Assembly: GCA_903827955.1 (NCBI GenBank)
Contig: CAIKKJ010000075.1
Coordinates: 1 to 64,000 of the forward strand
Direction of reading: 5' to 3'
DNA from: an uncultured Verrucomicrobia subdivision 3 bacterium
GTDB taxonomy: Bacteria > Verrucomicrobiota > Verrucomicrobiia > Limisphaerales > UBA11358
DNA length: 64,000 nt
Below are positions 3,014 to 50,112 of the stretch, piece by piece; the first letter of the stretch is position 1, and each line of letters begins with the position of its first letter. The translations under genes and the position numbers were made by a program. Under the pieces are notes generated by a model. It was not told where the DNA came from. It made no database searches and saw only the letters and a program-made list of their open reading frames with translations.

Positions 3014-6000
3014 ATGAACCAAAAAACTGTCCTGGCCATGGCCATTAGCGCAGGTGCACTGGTTGGTCTTTTCTTTTTCCACCATTTGCCCATCGCGACC
3101 GGCAGCCGGACGGAAAACGCTGGCAGTGTCCCGCTAAAATCGGCGGTGAAAACGCCGGCGGCCAGCCAGCCGAGGTCAGCTAGGCCAGCACATTCCAAAC
3201 AGAATAATTTCACCTCAGATACTTTAGCGGATGCATTTCAAAATTTTTCGCAATGGGCGAGGCAATTTACGAATGGAACAGTGACGCTCGTGGACGGCCA
3301 GCGGTTCGCGTGGAAACGGCGCGAGGTGATGCGCGATTTGATTGAGCACAATCCGCAGCGCGCGTTGGAAATGGCCGTGCCGTTTGAGTTGCGCCAAAGC
3401 CTGCCGCATGAGGTCAGCAGGTTTTTCGAGGAGCAAGTGGACGGACGCGGCGATCTGGAAGTTTTGGCGGCAACGGATTTTTCAACGAGCGCGACGACCA
3501 TTTCCCGCAAGGTGCAAATTGGTGGCCGGCGGTTTGACGCGTTTGTTTATGGCCGCCGCAACGGACAAGTTTCACAATTAAACATTCCGCTGCACGGCGT
3601 GGCACTGGACGGTAAACTCGCGGTGGCCGCGCAGCCGTTGCGTGAACTGTCGCTGGCCGAGGCGACGGCGCTGGATGCGAAAACGGTTTCCGCGAATGCC
3701 ATTTGTTCCGTGTCCGGCCGCGCGGCGGATTCACGCGGCCACCAGATTTTCGCCGAGAGCGGCGGTGGCGTGCTACATTTTTGCGGCGTGGATCATTTTG
3801 ATCTGGCGGACCGGCAACTCGCGCTGGCCGAGAGCGGCGGGACTTCCGCCGGCACGTTTCCGATTATTCCGTCGGCCGCGCAGGACAACTGGACACACGG
3901 CCGCAAGTCTGTGCTCTACATCCGCGTGAATTTTCCCGACGACCTGACCGAGCCGATTTCCGAACCGGCGGCTTACACGGCGATGAATGGCGTGAATTCT
4001 TTTTACACGGAAAATTCCTACGACCTGACGTCACTCACCGCCACAGTCACGCCCGTCATCACGATGCCGCAGACCAAGGCGTATTATTCCGCCGACGCCG
4101 GCTTGCTGCTCAACGATGCGCGGACGTGGGCGAAAAAGGCCGGTTACGTCACGGCGAATTACGAACGCGACATCGTGGCGCTGACGAGTGTGCCAGGTTT
4201 TTCGTGGGGCGGGCTGGCGTTTGTCGGCGGCAAAGGCGTGTGGTTGCAAAGTTTTGGCGTGGGCGTGACCGCGCACGAACTTGGCCACAACTACGGTTTG
4301 TGGCACGCGAATTTTTGGGACACGCGCACGAACTTCAGCATGGTCGGGCCAGGCACGAATCTGGAATACGGAAATATTTACGACACGATGGGCCCGGCGG
4401 CGGCGGGCAACGCGCTGTTCAATGCCGTGCATAAAAATATTCTCGACTGGCTCAAGGCGGACGCCGTGCAGACCATCACGAGCAACGGCATTTACCGGCT
4501 TTATCCGTTTGACGTGCCGGCGGCGAAACGCGTCGCGGGCAGAAATTATGCGGCGGCGATAAAACGTGATTCGCTCCGTGATTGCTGGCTGGAATTCCGC
4601 ACGAAATACACGGCCAACGCGTGGGACGAGAACGGCCTGCTGCTCAACTGGACGCCGTGGGACGAAAGCAACGGCGGCGCGCACTTGATTGACACCACGC
4701 CCGGTTCACCGGATGCCAACGACACCGCGAGCCGCAGCGACGCGGCGGTCACGATTGGCCGGACGTTCAATGACCACGCCGCCGGGCTGCACCTCACGCC
4801 TTTGCTGCGCGGCGCGAGCGGCGCGGAGCCTTGGATTGATTATCAGGTGAACCTCGGCACGTTCACCAATAATCATCCGCCGGTGCTCGCCATCGAAGCC
4901 GACTTGACCAACGCTGCGCCGGGAACGCTCGTGCATTTTCACGCGACGGCTGCCGACCCGGACGGCGATGCGCTGGCGTATGCGTGGACGTTCGATGATC
5001 TGACGTTCTCCACGAACAACCAGCCGTGGATTGCAAAAACTTTTTCCGGCTCCGGCGACCATCTCGTGCGCTGCGTGGTCAGCGACATGAAAGGCGGCGA
5101 GGCCAGCGCGAATGTCATCGTGAGCACCGGCGCGTCGGCGAAATTCCGTTTGAGCGGACGCGTGACGGATGTGAACGGTTCACCGCTCGGCGGCGTGCTC
5201 GTGGGCAACGGACAAATTGACGCGGCAAAATTCATCGGCGGCTGGACGGACAGTGACGGCCGTTACACCATCGTCAACGTCAGCGTCACGAACAGCTTCG
5301 ACTTGCTGCCGCACCAGTTCGGCTACACCTATTCTAACGCGAACTGGGCGAATCCAATTTTCCCGACGAACAACACGGATGGTTTGGATTTCGTCGCGAC
5401 GCCGCTGCCATTAGTGAATGTTTTTGCCGATACCAATGCCGTCGTCGAAAGCGACGGCGCGGCGCACACGTTCACCGTCACGCGCACCGGCAGCGTGAGC
5501 AATGACCTGACCGTGAACCTAGTTTTGAGCGGCACGGCCACGCTGAGATCAGATTATTCGCTGACGCCGACGATTGTCGCCACGAACGGCGTGACGATTC
5601 CCGCCGGGACGAACAGCGTTACGTTCACTTTTCACGTTATCAACGACTCGCTCGTCGAAGGGCCGGAAACCATTTCGCTGACGCTGCTCGACGACGACCA
5701 GAACACGAGCAATCCCAACTACGCCATCGCGCCGCTCGGCGATGCGACCGTGACCATCATTGACGACGATTCACTCGTGACGCCGACCGTGATGCTCACA
5801 ACCACCACGCCGCAGATTTCCGAAAACGGCATGGATCCCGGCCAGCTCATCTTCACACGCCTCGGCAGCACGGCGGGAGATTTGGCCGTGAATTATTCCG
5901 TCAGCGGCACGGCGACGGCGGGCGCGGATTATGTCACGCTGCCGGGCGTGGCGGTGATTCCGACGGGGCAAAGCAGCGTGACGATTCCGCTGGTGCCGAT

Positions 6001-9000
6001 TGATGACAAAAATTTTGAGACCAATGAAACGGTCACTGCCACCCTCGCCACAAATGTCACTTACATCATCGGTTCACCGTCCGCTGCGACCATCACGATT
6101 CTCGATGATGATTTCATGACCGTGTCAGTTTATGCCACGGGCGATGCCGCCGAACCGGCGACCGTCGGAAAATTCACCGTGAAGCGGGACGGTGATTTGA
6201 CCGAGGCGCTCGTAGTAAATTACAACGTCAGCGGCACAGCCAGCAACGGCGTGGATTATTCCGCATTGAGCGGCATTGTGACAATTCCCGCCGGCGCGGC
6301 CTCGGCGGATATTTCCGTTGCGCCCATTGACGATTCGCTGTTGGAAGGCGACGAGACGGTGATGCTTTCGCTAACCAACACGGTGAACTACGATGTCGGC
6401 ACACCGGGCAGCGCCACGGTTTTCATCCGCGACAGCGAGCGGCCGACCATCACCATCAGCTCAACCAATACGCCGATCTCCGAACAAGGTGCGACGACGG
6501 GGCAATTCATCATCACGCGCAACAGTTCCGTTGGCGACCTCACCGTGTTCCTAAACATCAGCGGCACGGCCACAGCCGGCAGTGATTATGTGCCGCTCGA
6601 CAATCAGGTCCTCATCCCCGACGGCGCGACTTCCGCGACGCTCGATGTGATTCCGTTTCACGATTTGATTTTGGAGCCGATGGAAACCGTCATCGTGACG
6701 TTGCCGACAAACGCCAATTATTTCGTGTCCTCCTCGGCGAGCGCCACGGTGGAAATTCTGGACGACGGCACAAGCACGATTCCCGGCATCGGTTTTTGTT
6801 TTGCGACTTCCGCATTTTTGGAAGGCGAATCGCCGGGCATAGCGGTGACGTTGAGCCAGACTTCCAGCGTGCCGGTGCAGGTCGGCTACCGCGTCATCGG
6901 CGGCACGGCCTCAAGCAACCGCTATTCGCTGCCGCAGGGAATTTTGATCATTCCGTCAAACACCTGGGTCGCGTTCGTGCCGCTGAAAATCACCAACGAC
7001 TCCCTCGTCGAACCGCCGCAGACCATCCGCGTCACGCTCTTCAACCCGGCGAACGCCACGCTCGACGGCATTAAAATCCACACCTACACCATCCTCGATG
7101 ACGACGTATGTTCCGTGAGCGTCACCGCCACGCAGACGAACGCGGCGGAAACCGGTTTAGTCGCGGGCAACTTCCGCATCACGCGCGTCGGCTCGACCAA
7201 TTCCGCGCAGCCCGTGAATTTCCAAATCACCGGCAGTGCCAGCGCGCCGACAGATTATTCGCCGCTCGGAAATTCTACGGTGATCCCGGCGGGCGCGACG
7301 TTTGTGGATCTGCCGGTCACGCCGACGGATGACAACATGATGGAATTTCCGCAGACCGTGGTGCTGACTTTGACCAGTGCCACCAATGCAAATATCATTT
7401 CGCCCAACGTCGCCACCGTAACCATTGCAGACAACGACACGAATAATCTGCCCGTCGTCACCGTCACTTCCACCGACCATCCCAATGCGCTCGAAGGCGG
7501 CGCGAACGGCGAGTTTTTATTCACCCGCACCGGCCCGGTGACAAACGCGCTGACCATTTTATTTTCTGTCAGCGGCACAGCCGGCAACGGCGTGGACTAC
7601 GCAGCCATCACGAACGGCGTGACGATTCCTGCCGGCCAGTCGAACGCCATTGTGAGCGTCGCCGCCGTGGACGACACTTTGGTCGAGGGCGACGAGACGG
7701 TCATCATTTCGTTGACCGAGGGTGCGGATTATCGGACTGCGTATCCGGCGTTCGCAACGGTGACGATCCAAGACAACGACCAGCGCGTGTGGATTGATGC
7801 GAGCGATTTCATCGCGTCTAAATACGCGCCGAATCTTCCCGACCCCGGCCAGTTCACGTTCTCGCGCTTCGGCACGACGAACACGCCGGTCACCATTTTC
7901 TACGCCATCAGTGGCACGGCGAGCAACGGCCTCGACTACGCCAGCATCACCAACTTCATCGTCATCCCCGCCGGCCAACTCACCACGACGCTACCCATTT
8001 TACCGCAGCACAGCGGCATCGTCGTCGGGCCGGTGACGGTGACGCTCACGTTGCTGACGAACACCGCCTTCGTCCTCGGCGCGAAGACGAATGGCACGGT
8101 GACCATCAACGACGACATGCCGGCAGTTTCGATTTCCGCCGTGGTGACAAATGTTTTGGAAGGCAGCGGCTCGAACGGCGTCTTCCGCGTCACGCGCAGC
8201 GGCGACCCAAAATATGATTTCACCGCGCTGCTCGGCGTCGGCGGTCAGGCGACGTTCGGCGTGGATTATCCGCCGTTCGCGACGAATGTTTATTTTTCCT
8301 GCGGCGTGACCTCCGTGGATTTGTTCATCACGCCGACAAACGAAGTTGTGGTGGAAGGCGATGAATCGGTGCTCGCGTTCCTGCTGCCGAGTTCAGCGTA
8401 TTCCATCCTTTCGCCGAGCAACGCCGTGCTAACCATCGCCGACGCGGGCACAAATCAAACGCCACAGGTCATCATCACCAGCCCAAAAACTTACGTCGCC
8501 TTCGCCAACGGCACGAACGCCGGCTTGGTGCTGAATGCGACGATCATTGACGACAGCACCAACGACGTGCTGAAGTGGACGAAGGTGAGCGGGCCGGACA
8601 GCTACGTTTTCGGCGACCCCACGACGAACAACACCACGGTGACCTTCACCAACTCCGGCGTTTATTTGTTGCGGCTCACCGCGGACGACGGCCAGTTGCA
8701 AGGCCACGCAGACATTCTGGTTTTCGTCAGCACGGATGTTTTGAGCGTGACGAACATTTTGCATTGGACGCTCGATGACGGCAGTGGCACGAACGTCCTC
8801 GACTCATCAACGAACGGGCGCAACGGCACGCTGGTCGGCCAGCCAGCATGGATAACGAATGGCGCCATCGCCGGCGCCTTGAATTTTCACGGCACGAATG
8901 ATTGCGTGCGCCAGACCGCCGGCTCCAACACGTTGAACGGTTTGTCCGCCTTCACCGTCGCGCTGTGGATCAAACCGGCGACGAACGCGAGCCAGGGATT

Positions 9001-15920: not shown

Positions 15921-17270
15921 TCAGCCGAAAACCATTTTGCAGACCGTCACCGCCACGACCACGCTGACAAAATCCGCAGTCAATCCCGCCAGCAGCGCGT
16001 GCCGTGTGCGCTTGATGGCCACCGAGCCGAAATAAACCGCCAGCACATAAAACGTCGTCTCCGTGCTGCCGTAAATCGTTCCCGCCGTCCGCGCAATCAA
16101 ACTGTCCGGCCCGAATTGCTTCACCAGCTCCGTGAAAAATCCCAGCGAGCCACTGCCGCTCAACGGCCGCACCAAAACCATCGGCAGCAAATCCGTCGGG
16201 AAGCCGAGCTGATTCAGCACCGGCGACAGCGCGCGACTCAACATATCAATCCCGCCCGCCGCGCGGAACATTCCCACCGCGACGAGCATCGCCACGAGAT
16301 ACGGGATGATGCGGATGGCCACATCAAAACCTTCCTTCGCGCCATCCACGAATTCTTCATAGACCTTCACCCGCCGCAACATGGCGAACAGCGGAATGGC
16401 CGAGAGCAGAAACGGAATCGAAAGCAGCGACACCGCGCCGACGATGCGGATGAAAAGATTTTTTTTCGTTTCCTCTTCTGAAACCGGTAGCCCGAACGTT
16501 TCCGGAAAAACCATCCGCAAAAAGAAAAACGCAAAACACAGCAAGAACGCGGCAAAAATAAAATTCCCCCACCACTGCATCGGCTGAAGCGTCACGGCTT
16601 CCTTCACCGTCGGCTTGTCACTTTCAGCCCTCCCGCCTTCCGCTTTGGCAATTTCCGGTTTCAGGTTTCCAATTTCAGCCTTCACCGCAAACATCGGCAA
16701 CTTGCTCAAAAATTTTGCCATCAGCACGCCGCTGACCGCTGCGCACGCGGTGCAGATGATACTCGTGCCAACGATGGCTGTGGGGTTCGTGGATTTGTTC
16801 GCCGCGAGAATCGCGATGGCCGTGACGGGAATGAGCTGGATGCCGCTGGTGTTGATCGCGAGGAAGGTGCACATCGCATTGGTCGCCGTGCCGGGAGTTT
16901 TGTTGAGCGATTCCAGATCCTTCATCGCACGCAGGCCGAGCGGCGTGGCGGCGTTGCCGAGACCGAGCATGTTCGCGGCGATGTTCATGAGCATGGAACC
17001 CATCGCGGGATGTTCCGGCGGCACTTCGGGGAAAATGCGTTTCATCAGCGGACGCAACGCCCGCGCGAGCAGCGCGACCAGTCCAGCGCGTTCCGCCAGA
17101 CGCATGATGCCAAGCCACAACGCCATCACGCCGATAAGCGCGAAGGCGATGCCGACGACAGCGGTGTTCACCATCTCCAGCGCCTTGTCGGCGACCTCCT
17201 TGAGCTGGCCGTTCCAGCCGCCGATGAGCACGGCGCACAACATCAGCCCCAGCCAGATGTAATTCAGCAT
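15921..17270 (-). CDS. SpmA-SpmB-like fused membrane protein (nucleoside-recognition/Gate domains)
   Basis: 449 residues, polytopic. The N-terminal half (1-200) resembles SpmA with MNIAANMLGLGNAATPLGLRAM, and the C-terminal half (about 270-449) resembles SpmB with a Gate-type SGSGSLGFFTELVKQFG. In Firmicutes the two are separate spore-maturation proteins; fused versions are common in non-sporulating bacteria, where the role is uncertain (possibly transport). The linker at about 195-222 (AEIGNLKPEIAKAEGG) is encoded by imperfect 7-bp tandem repeats at 16649-16683 and may be a repeat insertion. Confidence 0.82.
   Translation of the reverse strand: MLNYIWLGLMLCAVLIGGWNGQLKEVADKALEMVNTAVVGIAFALIGVMALWLGIMRLAERAGLVALLARALRPLMKRIFPEVPPEHPAMGSMLMNIAANMLGLGNAATPLGLRAMKDLESLNKTPGTATNAMCTFLAINTSGIQLIPVTAIAILAANKSTNPTAIVGTSIICTACAAVSGVLMAKFLSKLPMFAVKAEIGNLKPEIAKAEGGRAESDKPTVKEAVTLQPMQWWGNFIFAAFLLCFAFFFLRMVFPETFGLPVSEEETKKNLFIRIVGAVSLLSIPFLLSAIPLFAMLRRVKVYEEFVDGAKEGFDVAIRIIPYLVAMLVAVGMFRAAGGIDMLSRALSPVLNQLGFPTDLLPMVLVRPLSGSGSLGFFTELVKQFGPDSLIARTAGTIYGSTETTFYVLAVYFGSVAIKRTRHALLAGLTADFVSVVVAVTVCKMVFG
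16649..16683. repeat. Five imperfect 7-bp tandem repeats inside a gene
   Basis: Plus-strand units are CAATTTC, CGGTTTC, AGGTTTC, CAATTTC and AGCCTTC, perfectly in a 7-base phase. They encode a linker between the two halves of the SpmA-SpmB-like protein. Confidence 0.7.
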
Positions 17271-17328
17271 GACGCAACGCTACACAAGCCGCCAAAAAAA
17301 TGCGCGCGGAAAATTCAGGCGGGTTTCA

Positions 17329-17347
17329 ATTTAGAATTATTCTAAAT
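17329..17347. promoter_or_regulatory. Fur/PerR-type operator
   Basis: A perfect 9-1-9 inverted repeat, ATTTAGAAT-T-ATTCTAAAT. Its 7-1-7 core TTAGAAT-N-ATTCTAA has the architecture of the PerR box (TTATAAT-N-ATTATAA). It ends two bases before the -35 of the fur-sufB-sufC operon, so the regulator probably controls its own operon. Confidence 0.85.
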
Positions 17348-17348
17348 C

Positions 17349-17376
17349 TTGACCGATCATTCACGCTGTGTAAATT
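17349..17376 (+). promoter_or_regulatory. Promoter of the fur-sufBC operon
   Basis: TTGACC (17349-17354), 16 bases, TAAATT (17371-17376). ATG 17388 follows after 11 bases. The TTG used as a start in the ORF track is the -35 element itself, so translation cannot begin there. Confidence 0.7.
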
Positions 17377-17387
17377 GTCTGTCGGCA

Positions 17388-17816
17388 ATGAAACCGCGCA
17401 GCCAGCAACCAGACGACCAGCACCTGACCGAACAGTTGGGCGCCACCGGGCTGCGCCTCACGCCGCAACGCCAGCAGGTCTATGATGTGCTGCGGCACAA
17501 GCGCGATCATCCCACGGCGGAAGAGGTTTTTATCCGCGCCAAGAAGTCGATGCCGGAAATTTCCCACGCCACCGTTTACAACTGCCTTGACGCGCTCGTG
17601 AAGTCCGGCCTTGCGCGGCAGGTCACGCTGGATCGCGGCGCGACGCGCTATTGCCCGAACATGCACGAGCACGGCCATTTTCATTGCGATGTGTGCGCGA
17701 CGGTATTTGATGTGGATTTGCCGGAACAGGCGATGAAGCTGCCCAAAGGTTTCAAGGCCGATCATTTTGACATCGCCATTCACGGCGTTTGCGCGGATTG
17801 CGCGAAGAAAAAATAA
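17388..17816 (+). CDS. Fur-family regulator (PerR-like), autoregulated
   Basis: 142 residues. A winged helix (LRLTPQRQQVYDVLRHKRDHPTAEEVFIRAKK) is followed by the dimerisation domain with the His-rich metal motif MHEHGHFHCDVC. Two CxxC motifs (CDVC and CADC) form the structural zinc site, as in PerR and Fur. Because a PerR-like box precedes the gene and sufB starts six bases after its stop, this protein probably controls Fe-S assembly in response to iron or peroxide, taking the place SufR or IscR has in other bacteria. Whether the regulatory metal site is PerR-like (peroxide) or Fur-like (iron) is not decided by the sequence. Confidence 0.88.
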   Translation: MKPRSQQPDDQHLTEQLGATGLRLTPQRQQVYDVLRHKRDHPTAEEVFIRAKKSMPEISHATVYNCLDALVKSGLARQVTLDRGATRYCPNMHEHGHFHCDVCATVFDVDLPEQAMKLPKGFKADHFDIAIHGVCADCAKKK

Positions 17817-20727: not shown

Positions 20728-21900
20728 ATGCGTGAAAAATTCCGTGACTGGGCAGAATTCATCGAAACGTTCTTCATCGAAGTCGTCTTCGAAGAACGCC
20801 ATGATTGGAAAGCCAAACTCACGCGCGCCATTCTTTTCGGCACTTCAAAGTTTTACCTCGTCGCCGTCAAAATCCATCGCGGCCTCATCAACTACCGCAT
20901 CCTGCGCGACAAAACGCTCGGCGTGCAAGTCATCGCCATCGGCAACCTCACCGTCGGCGGCACGGGCAAGACGCCCGTCGTAGAAAAATTCGCGCGCGAA
21001 CTTCAGAACGCCGGCCGCAAGGTTGCCATTCTCTCACGCGGTTACCGTTCGCGCCCCGCGCCGCTGCACCGGCGCATCGTGAACAAAATTCTTTTGCGCG
21101 ACGACCAGACGCCGCCGCGCGTGGTGTCGGACGGAAAATCTCTTTTGCTCGATTCCGAAATGGCGGGCGACGAGCCTTACATGCTCGCGTCAAATCTCAA
21201 AGACGTCATCGTGCTGGTGGACAAAGACCGCGTGAAGAGTGGACGTTACGCGATTGAAAAATTCGGCTGCGACACACTGCTGCTCGACGACGGTTTTCAA
21301 TACTGGCGGCTGCGCGGCCGCCGGCACGACGTGGTGCTGATTGACCGCCAGCAGCCGTTCGGCAACGAGCATTTGTTTCCGCGCGGCACCTTGCGCGAAC
21401 CGCATTCGCATCTGGCGCGGGCGCACACCATTTTTATTACCAAGAGCGACGGCAAAACGGCCGAGCTGCGCCAGCGCATTGCGAAATTAAATTCCACCGC
21501 CGCCGTCATCGAGTGCGTGCATCAGCCGCTTTATTTTGAGGACGTGTTCACCGGCGAACGCAAGGGGTTGGAACTGCTCGCGGGAAAAAAAGTTGCGTCG
21601 TTGAGCGGCATCGCGCAGCCGGAAAGTTTTGAGCAAAGCCTCGTCCGGCTAGGCGGTGAATTGGTTTATGCCAAACGTTTCGCCGATCATCACCGCTTCA
21701 CGCAGCAGGAAATCCTGAACACCATCAACCGCGCGAAGAAACGCCAGGCCCACATCATTCTCACCACGCAAAAAGACGCCGTGCGCTTCCCCAAAATTGA
21801 CCGGCGCGACTTGCCATTTTATTTCATGCGCGTTGAAATCAAGATTGTGGACGGCGCGGACGACTTTCAGGATTGCGTGGGTAAAATCTGTTTTCGTTGA
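20728..21900 (+). CDS. lpxK: Tetraacyldisaccharide 4'-kinase (lipid A synthesis)
   Basis: 390 residues. The P-loop [12 protein letters not shown] (about 72-83), the motif [10 protein letters not shown] and [20 protein letters not shown] are hallmarks of LpxK, which phosphorylates the 4' position of the lipid A precursor at the inner membrane. The protein has a long N-terminal region, with a hydrophobic stretch near 36-48, that may anchor it. First gene of an overlapping envelope operon: its TGA overlaps the ATG of the acyltransferase gene. Confidence 0.93.
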
Positions 21901-22792
21901 TGAACACGTTGCTTTATTGGCTTGGACGCGCAGTGATCGGCTGTGTGCAGGCACTGCCGCTGACCTTCGTGGCACGCGTCGGCCGTTGCCTTGGCGCGCT
22001 GGCATGGCTGGTGGACATCAAGCACCGCCGCGTGGTCGTCAAAAATTTGAACCTTGTTTTTCACACGGAAAAATCGGCGGAAGAAATCCGCGCCATCGCC
22101 CGGGAATGTTTCCGGCGCATCGGCGAGAACATGGCTTGCAGCGTCAAAACCGCAGCCATGACCAGAGCGGAACTGCAACCGCATTTGGAACTCGTGCTGG
22201 GCGGTTTTGCGCCGGCCCCCAACGCCGATGGCACAAAGCCCAATTACATATTTGCCGCCGGCCATTTTGGGAACTTCGAGATCTATGCCCGCACGCATGG
22301 TATTTTCCCCGACTACCAGCTCGCCACCACCTACCGAGCCATGAAACAACCCGGCCTCAACCGGCTGGTGCAGGAAATGCGCCAACGCAGCGGCTGCCGG
22401 TTTTTTGAACGGCGCACCGAAGGCGCAGAATTGCGGGCGGCAATGAATCAAGGCGGCCTCTTCCTCGGCCTGCTGGGCGACCAATATGCCCGCGGCCTGC
22501 GCGCCCCGTTTTTCGGCCACATTTGCGACACCGGCCTCGCCCCCGCCGTCCTGGCGTTGCGCTATGATTGCCGGCTATACACGGTAATCTGCTACCGCAC
22601 CGCGCTGGCCAGTTGGCGACTGGAATTCGATGACCAAATTGCGACCCACGAAAACGGCCAGCCGCGCCGCGCCGAGGACATCATTCTCGACGTGAATCGC
22701 GCCTACGAAAAAGCTATCCGCCGCGACCCCGCCAACTGGTTCTGGGTGCACGACCGCTGGAAAGTCCGCCGCCTCCGCCGCCTCGTTCCCGA

Positions 22793-22796
<4 letters not shown>
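21900..22796 (+). CDS. Lipid A acyltransferase (LpxL/HtrB family)
   Basis: 298 residues. An N-terminal membrane segment (LLYWLGRAVIGCVQALPL) precedes the acyltransferase motif AAGHFGNFE (HX4E) and FFERRTEGAEL. It would add a secondary acyl chain to lipid A after LpxK. The start is ATG 21900, overlapping the lpxK stop by one base, rather than the TTG used in the track; the next gene starts in its stop codon. Chain specificity cannot be read from the sequence. Confidence 0.88.
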
Positions 22797-23923
<1,127 letters not shown>

Positions 23924-23951: not shown

Positions 23952-23989
23952 TTGACGCGCACATCTGTCTGTCCTATTGTCATATGACA
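23952..23989 (+). promoter_or_regulatory. Promoter and palindromic operator of the GntR-ABC operon
   Basis: TTGACG (23952-23957), 17 bases, TATTGT (23975-23980). A perfect 12-bp palindrome, TGTCATATGACA (23978-23989), overlaps the end of the -10, placing a bound repressor over the transcription start. This is the expected autoregulatory site of the GntR protein encoded next. Confidence 0.75.
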
Positions 23990-23999
23990 GTCACCGCGT

Positions 24000-24401
24000 A
24001 TGCTCCTGCAAATTGATTTCAAGTCCGGCACACCAGTCTATCTACAACTGGTGGACCAGATCCGCCATGCCGCGGCGTCCGGCGGGCTGCGCACGGGCGA
24101 ACCGCTGCCATCCATCCGCCCGCTGGCGGAGGAATTGCGCGTGAACCGCAACACTGTGGCCAAGGCCTACGCGGAACTGGAAAGCCAGGGTGTCATCGAG
24201 ACGATTCCAGGCAAGGGTTGTTTTCTCAAGGCGGTCGGTTCCCCGCTCACCAAGTCAGCGCGCAACGATCTCGTCGTGCAGGAAATTGACCGCGCCATCG
24301 TCGCCGCGCATCACTTGCAGATTGGCGATGCGGATTTGATTTCGCTGGTGAAGAAACGGCTGGAGGCGTTTGAAAAGAAGCACAAGGCCACGAACGATTG
24401 A
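24000..24401 (+). CDS. GntR-family regulator, YtrA type
   Basis: 133 residues. The N-terminal winged helix (FKSGTPVYLQLVDQIRHAAASGGLRTGEPLPSIR, then LRVNRNTVAKAYAELESQGVIET) is typical of GntR. The C-terminal part is only about 60 residues of helix, as in the YtrA subfamily, which regulates adjacent ABC transporters and often responds to envelope stress. It lies directly upstream of an ABC ATPase and permease, with a perfect palindrome over its own promoter. I infer repression of the operon. The effector is unknown. Confidence 0.88.
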   Translation: MLLQIDFKSGTPVYLQLVDQIRHAAASGGLRTGEPLPSIRPLAEELRVNRNTVAKAYAELESQGVIETIPGKGCFLKAVGSPLTKSARNDLVVQEIDRAIVAAHHLQIGDADLISLVKKRLEAFEKKHKATND

Positions 24402-24417
24402 ATTTAAAAGGACACGC

Positions 24418-25323
24418 ATGAAAACGGAAAACCCAGTCATCGAAATCCAAAACCTCGTGCGGCGCTACGGCAAACACGATGCCGTGGACGGCCTCTCGCT
24501 CACCGTGCAGCCCGGCAGATGCTATGGCTTCTTCGGCCGCAACGGCGCGGGTAAAACCACGACCATCAAGTGCCTGCTTAATTTGCTGCGGCCGGATTCC
24601 GGCAGCGTGCGCGTGTTTGGTCTCGACCCGCGCAAGGATGAAGTCGCCATCAAATCGCGCATCGCCTATGTGCCGGACGTGGTGGCGTTTTATCCGTGGA
24701 TGACCGTGGCCGACACGCTGGAATACTACGCCTCCTTCCGCACCAACTGGAATCGCGACATCGAGGCCGATTTGCTCAAACGCTTTCAGCTCGATGCCGC
24801 CAAGAAAACCACGAGTCTCTCGAAAGGCCAGCGCACACAGCTCGCGCTCATCGGCGCGATTTGTCCCGAACCGGAACTGCTCGTGCTCGATGAGCCGACG
24901 AGCGGCCTCGACCCGATTGTCCGCCGCGAATTCATCGAAACCGTCATCGGCGCGTATCAATCCGGCGACCCCGGCAAGCGCACGGTGTTTGTTTCCACGC
25001 ATTTGATTTCCGAGTTCGAGGGTTTGATTGACGAATTCACCATCGTTGAAAACGGCAAAAATCTTTTGACGATGGAAGCCGACGCCGCGCGGGATCGTTT
25101 CAAAAAAATTCGGGCCCGCTTGCCGCAAGAAACCAAACTGAACCTGTCTGCCGCATTGAGCGTGAAGCAAAGCGGACGCGACGTAGAAATTCTCGCTAAC
25201 GGCAACAGCGAACAGTTGCTCGCGGAATTGAAGGCGCACAAGCCGGAGGAATTAAAAATCGAGGCGCTGACGCTGGAAGAAATCTTCGTGGCGTCGGATG
25301 TTTTGAAAAAGGCAACCACATGA
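24418..25323 (+). CDS. ABC transporter ATPase, partner of the RCC1-fused permease
   Basis: 301 residues from ATG 24418 (AAAAGGA about six bases upstream). Walker A FGRNGAGKTTT at about 40-50, signature region SLSKGQRTQLAL, Walker B LLVLDEPTSGLDP and the His switch STHLISE are intact. About 75 C-terminal residues extend beyond the ATPase core. The sequence is closest to YtrB/CcmA-type exporters. The next gene overlaps by four bases, so the permease is its partner. The track start at 24370 overlaps the regulator gene and lacks support. Confidence 0.93.
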   Translation: MKTENPVIEIQNLVRRYGKHDAVDGLSLTVQPGRCYGFFGRNGAGKTTTIKCLLNLLRPDSGSVRVFGLDPRKDEVAIKSRIAYVPDVVAFYPWMTVADTLEYYASFRTNWNRDIEADLLKRFQLDAAKKTTSLSKGQRTQLALIGAICPEPELLVLDEPTSGLDPIVRREFIETVIGAYQSGDPGKRTVFVSTHLISEFEGLIDEFTIVENGKNLLTMEADAARDRFKKIRARLPQETKLNLSAALSVKQSGRDVEILANGNSEQLLAELKAHKPEELKIEALTLEEIFVASDVLKKATT

Positions 25324-28136
25324 CCCCGCTCGTCAAAAAAGAAATCCGCCTGCTGCTGCCGAGCTTTCTCCTCGGTTGCCTGCTGGCATTTTCCAACTGG
25401 CTGCTGCCCATCATAGCGCGAGATTTCGACGGAATATTTTACCTGTTCCCATTCGTATTCTGCCCGGCGATGGTGGCCATGATGGCACTCAATCCGTTTG
25501 GCGGCGAGGTGAGCGCGGGCACGCTGGCCAACCTGTTGGCGCAACCCATTTCGCGGCTGCGGCTGTGGCAGACGAAAATTGTGCTGTTGGCGCTCGCGCT
25601 GTTGATTATCGGCCTGCTCTGGTGTGGATCTTTTATTTTACAATTACATTTTTACGGTAACCACGGTGATTTCAAAAATCCGCTGGATGCGCTTATTACC
25701 GCCGTCCTCTTCGGCCTCGTGGTTTTTTCCGGCGGACTGTGGACGGTGCTGCTGCTGCGGCAGGTGGCAGCGGCGTTTTGGTTCACGCTACTCGTGCCGG
25801 GCGTGTTGCTGGTGATTGTCTTCGCCATCTTCGGCGGCGAATCGGACGAACTCATCACCGCCGTGAGCGTGACGGTGCTGGGGCTTTACAGCCTCGCGGG
25901 ATTTTTCTTTGCGCGCTGGCTGTTTTTCCGCGCGCAGGATTTGCAATGGTCGGGCGGCAGCATCGTCATGCCGGAAATGCGCGGGCTAAAGTGGTGGGGC
26001 GAGCGTCCTCGCGAGCCGCACGTCGTGGGTGCCAGCGGCTCGTCAGTAGCCTCGCCCCACCGAAGACATCCGCGCGCGGCACTGTGGCGCAAGGAATTCA
26101 TGCTGCACCAGTCGCAATACGTCATGGCCTTCGTGCTGCTCGTGCTGCACCTCGGCGTGCTGGGCGTGCGACGTTTTTACGACTTGAGCCATTCGCGCGA
26201 CTTGAAATTCACGCTCGAAATTTTCTGGGGTCTGTGGTTTGTGATGCCGCTGCTCGTCGGTTGCGCGGCGGTGGCGGAGGAACGCAAAATCGGCACGCTC
26301 GAAGGCCAGCTCTGCCTGCCGGTAAAACGGCGCTCGCAGTTCGCCATCAAATTTATCGTGATGCTCTTTCTGTCCGTGCTGCTCGGCGTGGTGATGCCGT
26401 TGCTACTGGAAGGTAAACGGATTTTGCCGGGCGGCGGCCTTGATTTCTCAACGGCCACCGGGGTCATGGGACAAATTGCCTCCACAAATTATCCATTCTC
26501 CACCATAGAAACGATTTTGTTGAACACGGTGGTCATGGTGTGTCTTTATTTACCGGTGCTTTTTTTGGTCGGCATTGCTTTGCTGATTGGCGGCATGGCG
26601 TTTTACGCGTCGTCGCTGGCCCGCAACACGCTGCAATCGCTTGCGCCGGCAGTGCTGGGAATTTTGGTCATGTGTTTTCTGCTGGCGGCGGCGGGTATTC
26701 CGGCGGTTCCCACAGTTGATTTTATGTGGCGCGGGCCGCTGGCGTATTTCATCGGCGTGCCGCTGGTGCTGCTCACGCTGGTGGGCTTGGCGTTTTGGAA
26801 TTTTCAGCAGGTCAAAGCCAGCGCACAAATGGGCTGGCGCAACCTGCTGGCGTTCGTGCTGGCCGTGGGGCTGGGCGTGGTGACGACGGCGGCGGTGTAT
26901 CATCGCGCGTGGGAAAAACTCACGCCGTTCGAGCCGGCGCACGGCGCGGCGCGGTTGGCGCTGGCGGATTCTGTCCGGTTGGAAAACCCTTGGAACGACT
27001 TGAGCGTCCGTTTGCCGGAGGGAAAAATCTGGAAAGCCTGGTCCAAATACAACCGACCTGACCCGCTTGATGTGTTGCTGGGAAATTTCAAAGTCGCGAA
27101 GCAGGAAGGCGCATATCTCGGCGGCTCGAATTGGACAGCCGTGGTTGATTGTCTTTGGTATCAACAGGCGGGCATCAAGTCGGACGGGACGCTGTGGGTT
27201 TCGCCAAAGCCAAAACGTCCCAGCGCCTCCGAAAGATTCCGGTCCGTCTTGCCAAAACGAGAAGCACTCGCGCAATTTGGCAGCGAGACCAACTGGAGCA
27301 GTCTGGGCTCGCGAGGAATTTTTGCGTTGCTCGTTAAAAATGACGGAACCTTGTGGCGCTGGGGCGTGACGAATTTTGACTCGAAGCACGAAACCTGGCC
27401 CGGCCTGCAAGCCTTCACGCCCCAGCGGCTCGGAACGGAATCAAACTGGGCGGAGGTTTCCGAACATAACTACCGGTTTCAACTTCGCGAGACCGACGGC
27501 AGCGTCTGGACTTGGAATGACTACGGCAGCACAAACAATCTGACCCGGCTTGAAATTGAACCGGGGTTCACCGTCGAATCCATGACTAGCTTCAAAAATT
27601 TTCGCAGCAAGGCATACATAAATCCTGGATTGCAATACCGCGTCGGCGTGCGCGACGACGGCACCTTCCGCATCTGGTCTGGTGATCGTGTGGTTATCAA
27701 TAAAACTTCACGCTACAATTCTTACGAGCAGTTTCCGATGGATTTGCAAATCGGCAGCGAAACCAACTGGCTCGCCGTCGCTGGCGGCGGCGAAAAAATC
27801 ATCACGCTCAAAAACGACGGAACGCTCTGGCTGTGGAATTTTCAGCGGAGTCAATTCAGCGGTGGAGCACAAAACGAATTTGAATCGGAAATCCAAAAGA
27901 CCGTCCCCGTCCGCCTCGGCAAGCATGCGGACTGGATAGCCATTTCCGGCGGTTGGGAGGCCACCACTCTCGCCGCCGACGGCAGCCTCTGGTATTGGCC
28001 GCTGCAAACCGGCAACCGCTATGACGGTGCCTACAGCACATACGACGACCGGAATGATTTCAGCCACATCCGCCCGCTGCTGGAAAGCTCGCGCAAGCCG
28101 CAGTTGCTGGGAAATGTGTTTGCCGGCGGACAGTGA
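25320..28136 (+). CDS. ABC permease fused to C-terminal RCC1-like repeats
   Basis: 938 residues. The N-terminal half (about 1-530) has roughly 13 hydrophobic segments of an ABC-2 type exporter permease. The C-terminal part (about 575-938) holds about six RCC1-like units, each with NW/DW...DGTLW(R/L)W spacing (KNDGTLWRWG, KNDGTLWLWN, AADGSLWYWP). RCC1 propellers are protein- or ligand-binding and are not usual parts of permeases. With an odd number of membrane segments the propeller would be extracytoplasmic; this is an inference. Residues 225-247 (ERPREPHVVGASGSSVASPH) are encoded by a dispersed palindromic element also found in leuS. The gene overlaps the ATPase gene by four bases. Confidence 0.85.
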   Translation: MTPLVKKEIRLLLPSFLLGCLLAFSNWLLPIIARDFDGIFYLFPFVFCPAMVAMMALNPFGGEVSAGTLANLLAQPISRLRLWQTKIVLLALALLIIGLLWCGSFILQLHFYGNHGDFKNPLDALITAVLFGLVVFSGGLWTVLLLRQVAAAFWFTLLVPGVLLVIVFAIFGGESDELITAVSVTVLGLYSLAGFFFARWLFFRAQDLQWSGGSIVMPEMRGLKWWGERPREPHVVGASGSSVASPHRRHPRAALWRKEFMLHQSQYVMAFVLLVLHLGVLGVRRFYDLSHSRDLKFTLEIFWGLWFVMPLLVGCAAVAEERKIGTLEGQLCLPVKRRSQFAIKFIVMLFLSVLLGVVMPLLLEGKRILPGGGLDFSTATGVMGQIASTNYPFSTIETILLNTVVMVCLYLPVLFLVGIALLIGGMAFYASSLARNTLQSLAPAVLGILVMCFLLAAAGIPAVPTVDFMWRGPLAYFIGVPLVLLTLVGLAFWNFQQVKASAQMGWRNLLAFVLAVGLGVVTTAAVYHRAWEKLTPFEPAHGAARLALADSVRLENPWNDLSVRLPEGKIWKAWSKYNRPDPLDVLLGNFKVAKQEGAYLGGSNWTAVVDCLWYQQAGIKSDGTLWVSPKPKRPSASERFRSVLPKREALAQFGSETNWSSLGSRGIFALLVKNDGTLWRWGVTNFDSKHETWPGLQAFTPQRLGTESNWAEVSEHNYRFQLRETDGSVWTWNDYGSTNNLTRLEIEPGFTVESMTSFKNFRSKAYINPGLQYRVGVRDDGTFRIWSGDRVVINKTSRYNSYEQFPMDLQIGSETNWLAVAGGGEKIITLKNDGTLWLWNFQRSQFSGGAQNEFESEIQKTVPVRLGKHADWIAISGGWEATTLAADGSLWYWPLQTGNRYDGAYSTYDDRNDFSHIRPLLESSRKPQLLGNVFAGGQ
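25993..26061. repeat. Palindromic element copy A, in frame inside the permease gene
   Basis: 69 bases starting GGTGGGGCGAGCGTCC and ending AGCCTCGCCCCACC. The arms GGTGGGGCGAG...CGAGCCG and their inverted copy are separated by a variable loop. The second copy lies at 47673-47734 in leuS. Both keep the host frame open. Confidence 0.9.
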
Positions 28137-28180: not shown

Positions 28181-29095
28181 GTGGAAACCGTCACGCAACT
28201 CACGAACCAGCTCGTCGCATCCTACGCGAAGGCGGGCGGCATCAATCATCTGGACGGAAAAAACCTGCCGTCCAAACGCGTCGTCACCGAATTGACGTGC
28301 GGTTTGCTGCGCCTGCTCTTCCCCGGATTTTTTGACGAGAAGCTGATTCATTCGTCCGAGATCAAAGTCGAGACGGCGGCGTTGTTAGATTCCATTCTCG
28401 GCACGCTGGAAGATGAAATCCGCAAGGCGCTTGAATACCAAACGCCCGCTGGCCTCGCGAAAAGTGACGTGGCAAATGAGGCGCACAAGCTGACGGTGGA
28501 ATTTCTCGGCAGCCTGCCGCGTGTCCGCGAAATTTTGCAGACGGACGTAGACGCGGCCTTCGACGGCGACCCGGCGGCGGCGAGCAAAGAGGAAATTATT
28601 GTTTCGTATCCGTTCATCGAAGCCATCGCCGTGCAACGGCTGGCGCATGAGCTTTACCTCAAGAACATCGCGCTCATTCCGCGCATCATGAGCGAATGGG
28701 CGCACGCGCGCACAGGCATGGACCTGCATCCGGGCGCGAAGATTGGGACGCATTTTTTTGTGGATCATTGCACCGGCACAGTTGTCGGCGAGACGGCCAT
28801 CATCGGCAACCATGTGAAGATGTATCACGGCGTGACGCTTGGCGCAAAATCCACGGCAGGCGGGCAATTGCTCAAGGGCAAGAAACGCCATCCGACCATC
28901 GAAGATCGCGTAACGATTTATCCCGGCGCGACCATTCTCGGCGGCGAAACCATCATTGGCGTGGGCAGCACCATCGGCGGCAACGTGTTCATCATGGATA
29001 GCGTGCAGCCGAACTCGCTCGTCATCTACGACGGCCTTGATATGCGTGTGTTGAGCAAGGCGGATAAAAATTCCGGGCTCGATTTTCAGATTTGA
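28181..29095 (+). CDS. cysE: Serine O-acetyltransferase
   Basis: 304 residues from GTG 28181. An N-terminal helical domain (1-170) is followed by the left-handed beta-helix with HPGAKIGTHFFVDHCTGTVVGE, MYHGVTLGAKS, KKRHPTIEDRVTIYPGATILGG and GSTIGGNVFIM, as in serine acetyltransferases of the long N-terminal (EpsC-like) type. It makes O-acetylserine from serine and acetyl-CoA, the first step of cysteine synthesis. No cysK is adjacent. It ends at a bidirectional terminator facing rhaT. Confidence 0.92.
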   Translation: METVTQLTNQLVASYAKAGGINHLDGKNLPSKRVVTELTCGLLRLLFPGFFDEKLIHSSEIKVETAALLDSILGTLEDEIRKALEYQTPAGLAKSDVANEAHKLTVEFLGSLPRVREILQTDVDAAFDGDPAAASKEEIIVSYPFIEAIAVQRLAHELYLKNIALIPRIMSEWAHARTGMDLHPGAKIGTHFFVDHCTGTVVGETAIIGNHVKMYHGVTLGAKSTAGGQLLKGKKRHPTIEDRVTIYPGATILGGETIIGVGSTIGGNVFIMDSVQPNSLVIYDGLDMRVLSKADKNSGLDFQI

Positions 29096-46978: not shown

Positions 46979-47041
46979 GGTAAAGTAAGGATGCTTTCAT
47001 TTCCGATTTGTTCCAGACAATTTCACCCCCAAATTCCGCGA

Positions 47042-47069
47042 TTGAGTCAGGGGATTTCTTGCGTATCAT
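47042..47069 (+). promoter_or_regulatory. Promoter of leuS; decides its start
   Basis: TTGAGT (47042-47047), 16 bases, TATCAT (47064-47069). ATG 47080 follows after 10 bases. The track start at 47008 lies upstream of this promoter and is therefore unlikely. Confidence 0.65.
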
Positions 47070-47079
47070 TCAGCGCTCT

Positions 47080-50000
47080 ATGTCCAGCAGCCGCAGACAA
47101 TATCCGTTTCACCTGATCGAACCCAAGTGGCAGCAAACTTGGGAGCAGCAGCAGGCTTTCCGCGCGTTTAATCCGAACGAGGAAATTCCCGCGAACCATC
47201 CTTTCGCCGTGCGCCATAAGCTTTCCGGCAAAGTTTCCGCCACGCAACTGCCTGAAAAATTTTACATCCTCGACATGTTTCCGTATCCGAGCGGCGCGGG
47301 CTTACACGTCGGGCATCCCGAAGGCTATACAGCCACGGACATTCTCGCGCGCTACCGTCGCGCGTGCGGATTCAACGTGCTGCATCCGATGGGCTGGGAT
47401 TCGTTCGGTTTGCCTGCCGAGCAATACGCCGTCAAGACCGGCCAGCATCCGCGCGTGACGACCGAGGCGAACATCGCCAACTTCACGCGCCAGATCAAGA
47501 GTCTCGGCTTCAGCTACGACTGGTCGCGCGAACTCGCCACGACGGATGTGGAATATTTCAAGTGGACGCAGTGGATTTTCCTAAAGCTTTACAATTCGTG
47601 GTTCAATCCCGAAACGAACAGGGCTGAACCGATTGAAACGCTGAAATTTCCGGCAGAATTGGAATCAACGTCGGTGGGGCGAGCGTCCTCGCGAGCCGAC
47701 GCGTGGGACGGCTCGTCAGTAGCCTCGCCCCACCAAGACCTCGAATCGCGCCGCCGCGCTTATCGCGATTCCAAACGCCTCGCCTATGTCAGCGAAGCGC
47801 CGGTGAACTGGTGTCCTGAACTCGGCACGGTGCTGGCCAATGAGGAAGTCATAGACGGCAAGAGCGAAGTCGGCGGCTTTCCAGTCATCCGCAAGCCGAT
47901 GCGCCAATGGATGCTCCGCATCACCGCCTACGCCGAGAAATTGCTGGCCGACCTCGACACGATTGACTGGAGCGATTCGCTCAAGGAAATGCAGCGGAAC
48001 TGGATTGGGGGCAGCGAAGGCGCGGAAGTAGAATTTCGAGCTGGTGGAAAATATGTTCGGCGCAGCGATAATGCCGAATCAGAATTTCAAATAGGCCCAA
48101 AAATTCCAGTGTTCACAACACGTCCAGACACGTTGTGCGGCGCAACCTATTTGGTCATGTCGCCAGAAAATAAATTGTTGGATGAAATTGTCGAAGACAA
48201 ATGGCCGTTTTGGGCATACGCAGAATTGAAAGGAACGTCATTATTTGGCAAAGAGCCGGCAACGCCAAAGGAAGCTCTGGAATTGTATCGCAAATATGCG
48301 GCTTCAAAGAGCGATTTGGAACGAACTGATCTCAATCGAGAAAAAACAGGCGTGTATATTGGCGAATCAGCGGTTGAACCCATTCGCGAAAACATAATCC
48401 CCATCTTTGTCGCAGATTATGTTTTAGCAAACTACGGGACGGGCGCAATAATGGCTGTTCCAGCCCACGACGAGCGTGATTGGGAATTTGCGAAAAAATA
48501 CCGACTGTCAATTCGCGCGGTCGTCATGCCACCGGACGAATGGCTCATGAACGCGGTCGGTTCACCGCCGGCGGAATGGTTCACTAACGCATTCAAACTT
48601 TTGAACTTGTCAATGGATTCAATGGATTTGCTGACGGCAGCACGGAAGTTATACGAGCGAGACTGCGGTCTTTTCCCTTATCCGTTTGTTGGAACTGGCA
48701 CTGCAATTAATTCCAGTGGGACTGATGATCTCCAAGTTAATGGCTTATCCACCGCCGAAGCCAAAGCGAAAATCACCGCTTGGCTCGAAGAAAAAAAACT
48801 CGGCAAGCGCACCATCAACTACAAATTGCGCGACTGGCTGTTCAGCCGCCAGCGTTACTGGGGCGAACCGTTCCCGATTGTTTGGAAAAAGGACGCCGCC
48901 GGGAATTTGCACCACGAAGCATTGCCGGAAAGTTCGTTGCCACTGTTGCCGCCGTCGCTCGAAGATTACAAGCCCACTGCCGACGGCCAGCCACCGCTCG
49001 CCCGCGCGAAGGATTGGTTGAATCTGCCCGACGGTTCCGTGCGCGAAACGAACACCATGCCGCAGTGGGCCGGCTCGTGCTGGTATTATTTGCGTTACAC
49101 CGATGCGAAGAACGTGCAGTCGTTCGTCGGCAAGGATGCGGACAATTATTGGATGGCCTCGAATGGCAAGGCGGCGGGCGTGGACCTTTACGTCGGCGGC
49201 ACGGAACACGCCGTGTTGCATCTGCTTTACGCGCGGTTCTGGCACAAAGTTTTGTTCGACCTCGGCCACGTTTCGACGCCCGAACCGTTTTACAAACTCG
49301 TCAATCAAGGTCTTATCCTCGGCGAGGATATGCAGAAGATGTCCAAGGCTCGTGGTAATGTGGTGAATCCTGACGCTGTCGTCGAAGAATACGGCGCGGA
49401 TGCGCTCCGGCTTTACGAGATGTTCATGGGGCCGTTGCAGGACACCAAGCCATGGAACACCAAGGGCGTCGAAGGCGTCTATCGTTTCCTCGGCCGCGCG
49501 TGGCGTTTGTTCGTGGACGAGAAAGCGGAAACGGCTTTTGAACAGGCTGAGACTACGACTGAACCGTCCAAGCACGCAGAGTTGCTTGATTTAATTTTAC
49601 TCGATGGCGGCATTACCGACACGGACGCCACGCCCGCGCAACTCAAGACACTCCACGCCTGCATCAAAAAAGTCACTGAGGATTTGGACGGCATGCGCTT
49701 CAACACAGCGATTTCCGCGATGATGGTGTTCATCAACGAGGCGATGACGTGGCAGACGAAGCCGTTGTCGGTGATGAAAACTTTTCTGCAACTGCTCGCG
49801 CCGTTCGCGCCGCACATCGCGGAAGAATTGTGGGCGCGGCTGCATTCCACGTTCGGCCAAACCGCGCCGTCACTGGCTTATGCGGTGTGGCCGAAGTTTG
49901 ATGCGGCTTTGCTCGTCGAAAGCGAGATCGAACTGCCGGTGCAAGTGAATGGCAAGTTCCGTGACACGATCAAGGTGGCGGTGGACGCCGATAACACAGC

Positions 50001-50112
50001 CATCGAGGCGGCGGCGAAAGCTTCGGAAAAAGTCCAAACGTTTATCGCAGGCAAGGCCATCAAGAAAGTCATCATCGTGCCGAAGCGGATGGTGAATTTA
50101 ATTGTCGGCTAA
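47080..50112 (+). CDS. leuS: Leucyl-tRNA synthetase with element insertion and mosaic editing domain
   Basis: 1010 residues from ATG 47080 (most bacterial LeuRS are about 860). The HIGH motif is HVGH in YPSGAGLHVGHPEGYT, and KMSKS is KMSKA. The CP1 editing domain has TTRPDTLCGATYLV and GTGAIMAVPAHDERDWEFA. The C-terminal domain ends VNGKFRDTIKV...VPKRMVNLIVG. Residues about 198-219 (GRASSRADAWDGSSVASPH) come from the palindromic element shared with the ABC permease. The editing region, roughly 48025-48745, averages about 46% GC by hand count, against about 60% in the rest of the gene, with AT-ending codons, suggesting gene conversion or recombination. Confidence 0.95.
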   Translation: MSSSRRQYPFHLIEPKWQQTWEQQQAFRAFNPNEEIPANHPFAVRHKLSGKVSATQLPEKFYILDMFPYPSGAGLHVGHPEGYTATDILARYRRACGFNVLHPMGWDSFGLPAEQYAVKTGQHPRVTTEANIANFTRQIKSLGFSYDWSRELATTDVEYFKWTQWIFLKLYNSWFNPETNRAEPIETLKFPAELESTSVGRASSRADAWDGSSVASPHQDLESRRRAYRDSKRLAYVSEAPVNWCPELGTVLANEEVIDGKSEVGGFPVIRKPMRQWMLRITAYAEKLLADLDTIDWSDSLKEMQRNWIGGSEGAEVEFRAGGKYVRRSDNAESEFQIGPKIPVFTTRPDTLCGATYLVMSPENKLLDEIVEDKWPFWAYAELKGTSLFGKEPATPKEALELYRKYAASKSDLERTDLNREKTGVYIGESAVEPIRENIIPIFVADYVLANYGTGAIMAVPAHDERDWEFAKKYRLSIRAVVMPPDEWLMNAVGSPPAEWFTNAFKLLNLSMDSMDLLTAARKLYERDCGLFPYPFVGTGTAINSSGTDDLQVNGLSTAEAKAKITAWLEEKKLGKRTINYKLRDWLFSRQRYWGEPFPIVWKKDAAGNLHHEALPESSLPLLPPSLEDYKPTADGQPPLARAKDWLNLPDGSVRETNTMPQWAGSCWYYLRYTDAKNVQSFVGKDADNYWMASNGKAAGVDLYVGGTEHAVLHLLYARFWHKVLFDLGHVSTPEPFYKLVNQGLILGEDMQKMSKARGNVVNPDAVVEEYGADALRLYEMFMGPLQDTKPWNTKGVEGVYRFLGRAWRLFVDEKAETAFEQAETTTEPSKHAELLDLILLDGGITDTDATPAQLKTLHACIKKVTEDLDGMRFNTAISAMMVFINEAMTWQTKPLSVMKTFLQLLAPFAPHIAEELWARLHSTFGQTAPSLAYAVWPKFDAALLVESEIELPVQVNGKFRDTIKVAVDADNTAIEAAAKASEKVQTFIAGKAIKKVIIVPKRMVNLIVG
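47673..47734. repeat. Palindromic element copy B, in frame inside leuS
   Basis: 62 bases starting GGTGGGGCGAGCGTCC and ending AGCCTCGCCCCACC, the same arms as copy A at 25993-26061 but with a shorter loop and a different reading frame at the start. Both copies end in the same frame (SSVASPH). Confidence 0.9.

Follow-up and report, generated by a model that had tools for sequence, protein, structure and literature searches.

An RCC1-like propeller fused to an ABC-2 permease in a YtrA-type operon of one Verrucomicrobiota order

The window, a stretch of 64,000 nucleotides from a draft genome (213 contigs, 3.86 Mb), carries a permease gene whose 3′ portion encodes an RCC1-like propeller, and this permease-propeller fusion is real and conserved within the order. 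The sequence indicates that the permease gene forms a single unit with the genes for a YtrA-type GntR repressor and an ABC ATPase. A three-gene ABC system had been proposed in an original prediction for this DNA, and the GntR, ABC_tran, and ABC2_membrane_2 models agree with it at the same coordinates. The architecture is built from known parts but is apparently undescribed as a whole, and our search of the literature found no published description of an RCC1 domain fused to a permease. The features of the locus are as follows.

23952-23980, + strand: putative promoter, read from the sequence, with a −35 element TTGACG (23952-23957), a 17-bp spacer, and a −10-like element TATTGT (23975-23980)
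23968-23991, + strand: predicted 24-bp operator TCTGTCCTATTGTCATATGACAGT, overlapping the −10 element, from a phylogenetic footprint
24000-24401, + strand: YtrA-type GntR repressor, 133 aa (Pfam GntR, E 4.8e-16)
24418-25323, + strand: ABC-transporter ATPase, 301 aa (Pfam ABC_tran, E 2.5e-26)
25320-28136, + strand: permease, 938 aa (Pfam ABC2_membrane_2, E 3.4e-10)
25320-26914, + strand: membrane part of the permease (residues 1-532), consisting of two homologous ABC-2 domains fused to each other (6+6 helices) and a 13th helix (ABC2_membrane_2; hydropathy of 23 relatives; hhalign)
25993-26061, no strand assigned: 69-bp inverted repeat of the REP type (REPIN-like) that keeps the reading frame within the cytosolic loop joining TM6 and TM7 (inverted arms; genome copies)
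26940-28133, + strand: C-terminal RCC1-like propeller, residues 541-938, seven blade units (WD40_RLD; family profile against the PDB; blade spacing)

Occurrence and composition of the operon

A search for the permease began with 59 near relatives and was extended to 320 genomes of the order, 71 of which, from 19 families, encode a relative (E 1e-20 or better). Forty loci were read together with their neighbors. The arrangement GntR-ATPase-permease/propeller is present in 32 of these, with one permease frame and one ATPase frame broken among them, whereas four loci are cut by contig ends and four (L140-L143) encode a permease without the propeller. As originally anticipated, the permease and its RCC1-like extension are one polypeptide in the loci read. 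A C-terminal part encoded as a separate open reading frame, which would have pointed to a fusion artefact, was encountered only at L147, at the edge of a contig, where the two frames overlap and look like the product of a sequencing frameshift. The propeller-less permeases (L140-L143) form a separate branch (support 100/99) in a tree of 45 permeases and are not fragments of a split permease-propeller protein. No fusion was found outside the order in a sample of ~386 genomes from the same phylum, in which every match was either an ordinary half-size permease or an unrelated propeller protein; this search scored few candidates per genome, and rare cases there could be missed. Viral contigs yielded no relative.

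The GntR domain of the regulator occupies residues 14-75 of 133 according to Pfam, and 58 residues remain. The YtrA subfamily is defined by an N-terminal GntR winged helix followed by a short C-terminal domain of ~50 residues (PMC6746942), and the predicted domains of the regulator conform to this definition. Another trait of the subfamily is that the regulator gene comes first in an operon that also encodes membrane transport proteins, as is the case here and in the relatives, whose GntR copies are 48-91% identical to that of the window. The ATPase retains all of the expected motifs, namely Walker A (GRNGAGKTT), the signature (LSKGQ), Walker B (LLVLDEP), and the H-loop (STH). Its gene overlaps that of the permease by ATGA, which is the four-base overlap noted previously. 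The permease exceeds the cut-offs of two ABC-2 models (PF12679, 40.1 bits versus 27.2; PF12730, 30.4 versus 27). These motifs and scores place the system in the ABC-2 exporter class, with ATP-dependent transport as its predicted activity.

The upstream regions of the operons share a putative 24-bp operator whose consensus, ACTGTCmTAnnGTCmTAkGACAGT, is found with five or fewer mismatches at 36 of 37 loci when these regions are aligned, and in 0 of 3,700 shuffles. The single locus that lacks a match lies at a contig end. The operator begins mostly 16 nt 3′ of TTGAC, a sequence that lies 15-17 nt ahead in 32 of the 36 operator loci, and ends mostly 7-11 nt before the start codon; propeller-less operons are preceded by it as well. 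A perfect palindrome over the promoter had been pointed out earlier. This 12-bp sequence (TGTCATATGACA, 23978-23989) is real, with 0.02 occurrences expected when up to one mismatch is allowed, but it constitutes only the right part of the conserved site, and the footprint replaced it as the candidate for the operator. The 24-bp site overlaps the −10 box, a position at which a repressor would be expected to bind. An operator of ~24 bp with distant half sites, along with a short C-terminal domain, is typical of the YtrA subfamily (PMC6746942), and the length suggested by the footprint is in keeping with this. Because the operator occurs only once in the genome, control by the regulator is probably confined to its own operon.

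Membrane topology, propeller, and repeat insertion

Hydropathy averaged over 23 relatives reveals 13 peaks arranged as six, six, and one, in line with the approximately 13 membrane segments estimated originally. Alignment of one half of the membrane part against the other shows them to be homologous (hhalign E 9.5e-11), and the ABC-2 coupling motif E-x-x-x-G-T-...-P-x-x-R recurs in both (EVSAGTLANLLAQPISR and EERKIGTLEGQLCLPVKR), within the loop that joins the second and third helix of each half. In ABC-2 permeases, the loop with the coupling motif faces the ATPase. Loops predicted to be inside contain ~29 lysine and arginine residues per protein, versus ~7 for those predicted to be outside. 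An odd number of helices combined with a cytosolic N-terminus would leave the C-terminus of the permease outside. Thus, hydropathy, the positive-inside balance, and the positions of the coupling loops strongly indicate that the N-terminus and coupling loops are cytosolic and that the propeller is periplasmic, a prediction that favors the earlier proposal of a propeller outside the cytoplasm. Given that both membrane halves reside in one chain, two copies of the ATPase and one permease would make a complete transporter.

Propeller-less relatives have 12-13 hydrophobic segments, and those of L140 and L141 stop directly after the 13th, which suggests that the propeller was either gained or lost at an outward-facing end. 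The second membrane half is also matched (E 1e-12 to 1e-17) by ordinary half-size ABC-2 permeases of other Verrucomicrobiota orders; these proteins of ~250-380 aa differ in that their halves are unfused and the 13th helix and propeller are absent. An AlphaFold model of the whole permease, based on a two-sequence alignment (window and L035), has a pLDDT of 33.

The Pfam RCC1-like domain (WD40_RLD) is recognized with an E value of 1.4e-7 in the whole permease and 8.8e-9 in the C-terminus alone, and the RCC1-like Pfam model matches 30 of 37 related C-termini. The curated cut-off of the RCC1-like model PF25390 is not reached (35.6 bits versus 150), and the propeller is therefore a divergent RCC1-like relative rather than a member of the model. 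When a profile of 37 C-termini was compared with the PDB, structures of HERC2, RCC1, and UVR8 were matched with E values of 1e-6 to 1e-5 (best 1.1e-6); a PDB search with the window sequence alone gave no significant match. The RCC1 resemblance that had been suspected was thus recovered by Pfam and by the family profile. Repeats of the DGTLWxW type are real as well, but the original count of about six gives way to seven, comprising residues 561-571, 603-626, 654-681, 705-732, ~758-786, 812-839, and 869-893 with a spacing of ~51-57 residues. A blade model scores five of the seven units in the window protein (two weak) and all seven in the relative at L119. The predicted blades accordingly have the number and size expected for RCC1, which is seven repeats of ~50-60 residues each. 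An AlphaFold model of the propeller, again from the window and L035 sequences, has a pLDDT of 46, and a Foldseek search with this low-confidence model ranked RCC1-like domains first (E 2.6e-10) with a TM-score of only 0.24, an agreement that we weigh lightly; no conclusion was drawn from either AlphaFold model. The propeller is the least conserved part of the permease; its blade tryptophans and DG motifs are invariant or nearly so across relatives.

Permease residues ~225-248 (about 24) are a translated REP-type mobile palindrome, which had previously been counted as permease sequence. The insertion is absent from 22 relatives, leaves the window permease with 13 net extra residues in the TM6-TM7 loop, and keeps the reading frame. 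The same element is present in ~16 places of the genome, including the leucyl-tRNA synthetase gene of the window. Further in-frame copies lie in the genes for MutS, PurL, and PriA and in two DNA glycosylase genes, and a REP-transposase-like gene (L050) is flanked by inverted copies. REPs within coding genes, especially repair genes, have already been described in Opitutus terrae and others (PMC3733652), and the insertion in the window is therefore a further case of a known phenomenon.

Permease paralogues and possible functions

Within the genus, the regulator and the ATPase are ~70-90% identical, whereas the permeases fall into two groups with identities of 51-63% within the group of the window, 42-52% within the other, and 31-35% between them. 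At L144, which has the same flanking genes as the window operon, the regulator is 91% and the ATPase 86-89% identical to their window counterparts, but the permease only 33%. The operon in the window has one permease gene, whereas five relative loci carry tandem permease pairs, and both kinds of permease stand in tandem at L126. This pattern would follow from an ancestral tandem pair that underwent differential loss or from an exchange of the permease alone. A rather unlikely but more far-reaching possibility is that the permease-propeller is an exchangeable specificity cassette, such that a conserved repressor/ATPase pair works with either of two very different paralogues in one and the same chromosomal location, and the choice of ligand or partner rests with the external propeller. 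Such a cassette would play a part in ABC-2 systems comparable to that of the external domains that sense antibiotics in other ABC systems. The frequent site of the operon in this genus lies between a heptosyltransferase gene and a serine-acetyltransferase-like gene, and no lipid A/heptose genes were seen beside the operon outside the genus.

The anatomy of the operon is well supported, and its function is predicted from it. We favor the reading that the operon encodes an autoregulated PmtR/YtrA-like ABC-2 exporter with the propeller as an external binding module, and we give this reading an even chance of being correct. The repressor would hold the operon off until a compound entering the membrane or cytosol binds it directly, by analogy with the action of phenol-soluble modulins on PmtR, which is directly released by the peptides that its pump exports (PMC5080381). 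The pump would then expel the same compound, and the propeller, located where the compound leaves the pump, would bind either the compound itself or an envelope protein that receives it. The inducing compound would probably be an amphipathic peptide, a lipid-linked precursor, or an antibiotic. This reading draws support from the gene order at 32 of the 40 loci, the operator at 36 of 37 loci and its single genomic site, the operator length typical of YtrA regulators, the homologous halves with their coupling motifs, the 13 helices with their charge balance, the propeller-less relatives that end after the 13th helix, the presence of PmtR and PmtA among the nearest models, and the frequent position of the operon between a heptosyltransferase gene and a serine-acetyltransferase-like gene in this genus. 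Counted against it are PmtR/PmtA scores far below the cut-offs, AlphaFold models of low confidence in which neither the closure nor the orientation of the propeller could be seen, a topology that rests on hydropathy, flanking lipid A/heptose genes that were seen beside the operon only within the genus, and the fact that a consistent role of Bacillus subtilis ytr in antibiotic survival was not confirmed (PMC12772383).

The observation that the process affected by B. subtilis ytr is cell-wall synthesis and not antibiotic survival (PMC12772383), together with the YtrA-type control seen here, would agree with an envelope-homeostasis device in which ATP-driven movements of the membrane domain alter which partner is bound by the periplasmic propeller, perhaps an enzyme of the cell wall or outer membrane. 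B. subtilis YtrBCDEF is currently viewed in a similar way, as a system that acts on the lipid II cycle. A homeostasis device would also suit the facts that RCC1/BLIP-II propellers are secreted protein binders in bacteria (PMC9218822) and that the operon adjoins lipid A/heptosyltransferase genes in this genus. However, ABC-2 type permeases are classically exporters, and the fast divergence of the permease (31-63%) relative to the regulator and ATPase (~70-90%) fits changing substrates at least as well, such that we consider a homeostasis device possible but somewhat unlikely.

An opposite placement of the propeller, in the cytosol behind 12 or 14 helices, would make it a regulatory rather than an external module that contacts the ATPase or the repressor. 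A simple hydropathy cut-off does give 12 segments in 4 of 10 singly scanned proteins, and the best-known RCC1 domains belong to intracellular eukaryotic proteins. Nevertheless, the family average has 13 peaks, the 12-segment propeller proteins miss a weak helix among the first six and retain the pre-propeller helix, and the positive charges and both coupling loops follow the alternation that 13 helices would produce, all of which makes a cytosolic propeller improbable. Finally, a draft genome in 213 contigs, a repeat element inside the gene, and the low conservation of the propeller might raise the suspicion of a fusion or assembly artefact, or of a decaying and functionless propeller. This suspicion merits hardly any credence because the same one-piece protein, with near-invariant blade tryptophans and DG motifs, occurs in independent genomes of many families, and because the frame is preserved through the repeat insertion. 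The artefact hypothesis was rejected on the basis of the relatives in 19 families, the loci read, and the permease tree.

Comparison with known systems

YtrA-type systems are common markers of cell-wall stress whose true function is debated. A fused single permease with a discrete, expressible external domain makes the binding partner of the propeller testable by a simple pull-down. The putative exporter with its external binding module has in common with B. subtilis ytrGABCDEF a YtrA-type repressor within the operon, a long operator, and ABC exporter parts. The ytr operon encodes a separate permease and further subunits, whereas the operon in the window encodes a single ATPase and a single fused permease that bears the propeller; having only this permease gene, it departs from the YtrBCDEF type with its separate permease and accessory subunits. 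Staphylococcus PmtR-PmtABCD, in which a repressor likewise stands beside a one-purpose exporter, is among the nearest curated relatives of the regulator and the ATPase. PmtA is the nearest NCBIfam model for the ATPase, but the scores for PmtR (59.7 of 200 bits) and PmtA (152.7 of 350 bits) fall well short of the equivalog cut-offs. The Pmt exporter is composed of two ATPases and two permeases and has no propeller.

The propeller shares its seven blade units and the DGTLWxW pattern with the RCC1/BLIP-II group, of which BLIP-II is a secreted bacterial member (PMC9218822). The best-known members of this group are soluble, whereas the domain in the window forms the tail of a transporter subunit. 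Most external domains of ABC exporters take the form of loops or of inserts between helices. A whole RCC1-type propeller at the exit of an ABC-2 pump, retained by many families within a single order, would represent a novel means of equipping such a pump with an external binding site.

Permease-propeller lineages and their chromosomal site

The genes that flank the operon are retained beside it in several species of the genus, and the genome that includes the window also encodes a second RCC1-like protein.

Window 21897-23923 and 28181-29095: lipid A acyltransferase, heptosyltransferase and hexapeptide acetyltransferase genes flanking the operon
Contig C159, about 16450-17433 (L002-L005): second RCC1-like repeat protein, a 687-aa open frame

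At three loci from relatives (L144, L126 and L138), the regulator, the ATPase and the chromosomal site are the same as in the window, whereas the permease-propeller is from a different lineage. Locus L126 carries both permease-propeller lineages, the window's and the other, in tandem. The propeller-less permeases of relatives' loci L142 and L143 continue for about 120 to 150 residues beyond the final hydrophobic segment, and terminate in repeated motifs such as MSPELMRRYGLQ.

REP pairs within coding genes and their candidate mover

Two genes of the window carry in-frame insertions of the REPIN-like inverted REP pair.

25993-26061: REP pair in the permease gene
47673-47741: REP pair in the leucyl-tRNA synthetase gene (ORF 47008-50112)
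Contig C211, about 5734-6300 (L050): REP-associated tyrosine transposase-like gene (NCBIfam match of 65.6 bits, below the cut-off of 80)

Further in-frame copies, read among loci L036-L060 of the same genome, are present in the genes for MutS, PurL, PriA and squalene/phytoene synthase, and in each of the MutY-like and OGG-like glycosylase genes. Inverted REP copies lie on both sides of the transposase-like gene, and this sequence arrangement is a candidate REPtron, which could mobilise the REP repeats. On contig C191, a Y1_Tnp match is located about 3.5 kb from a REP copy. REP insertion within coding genes is a type of event that is already known (PMC3733652).
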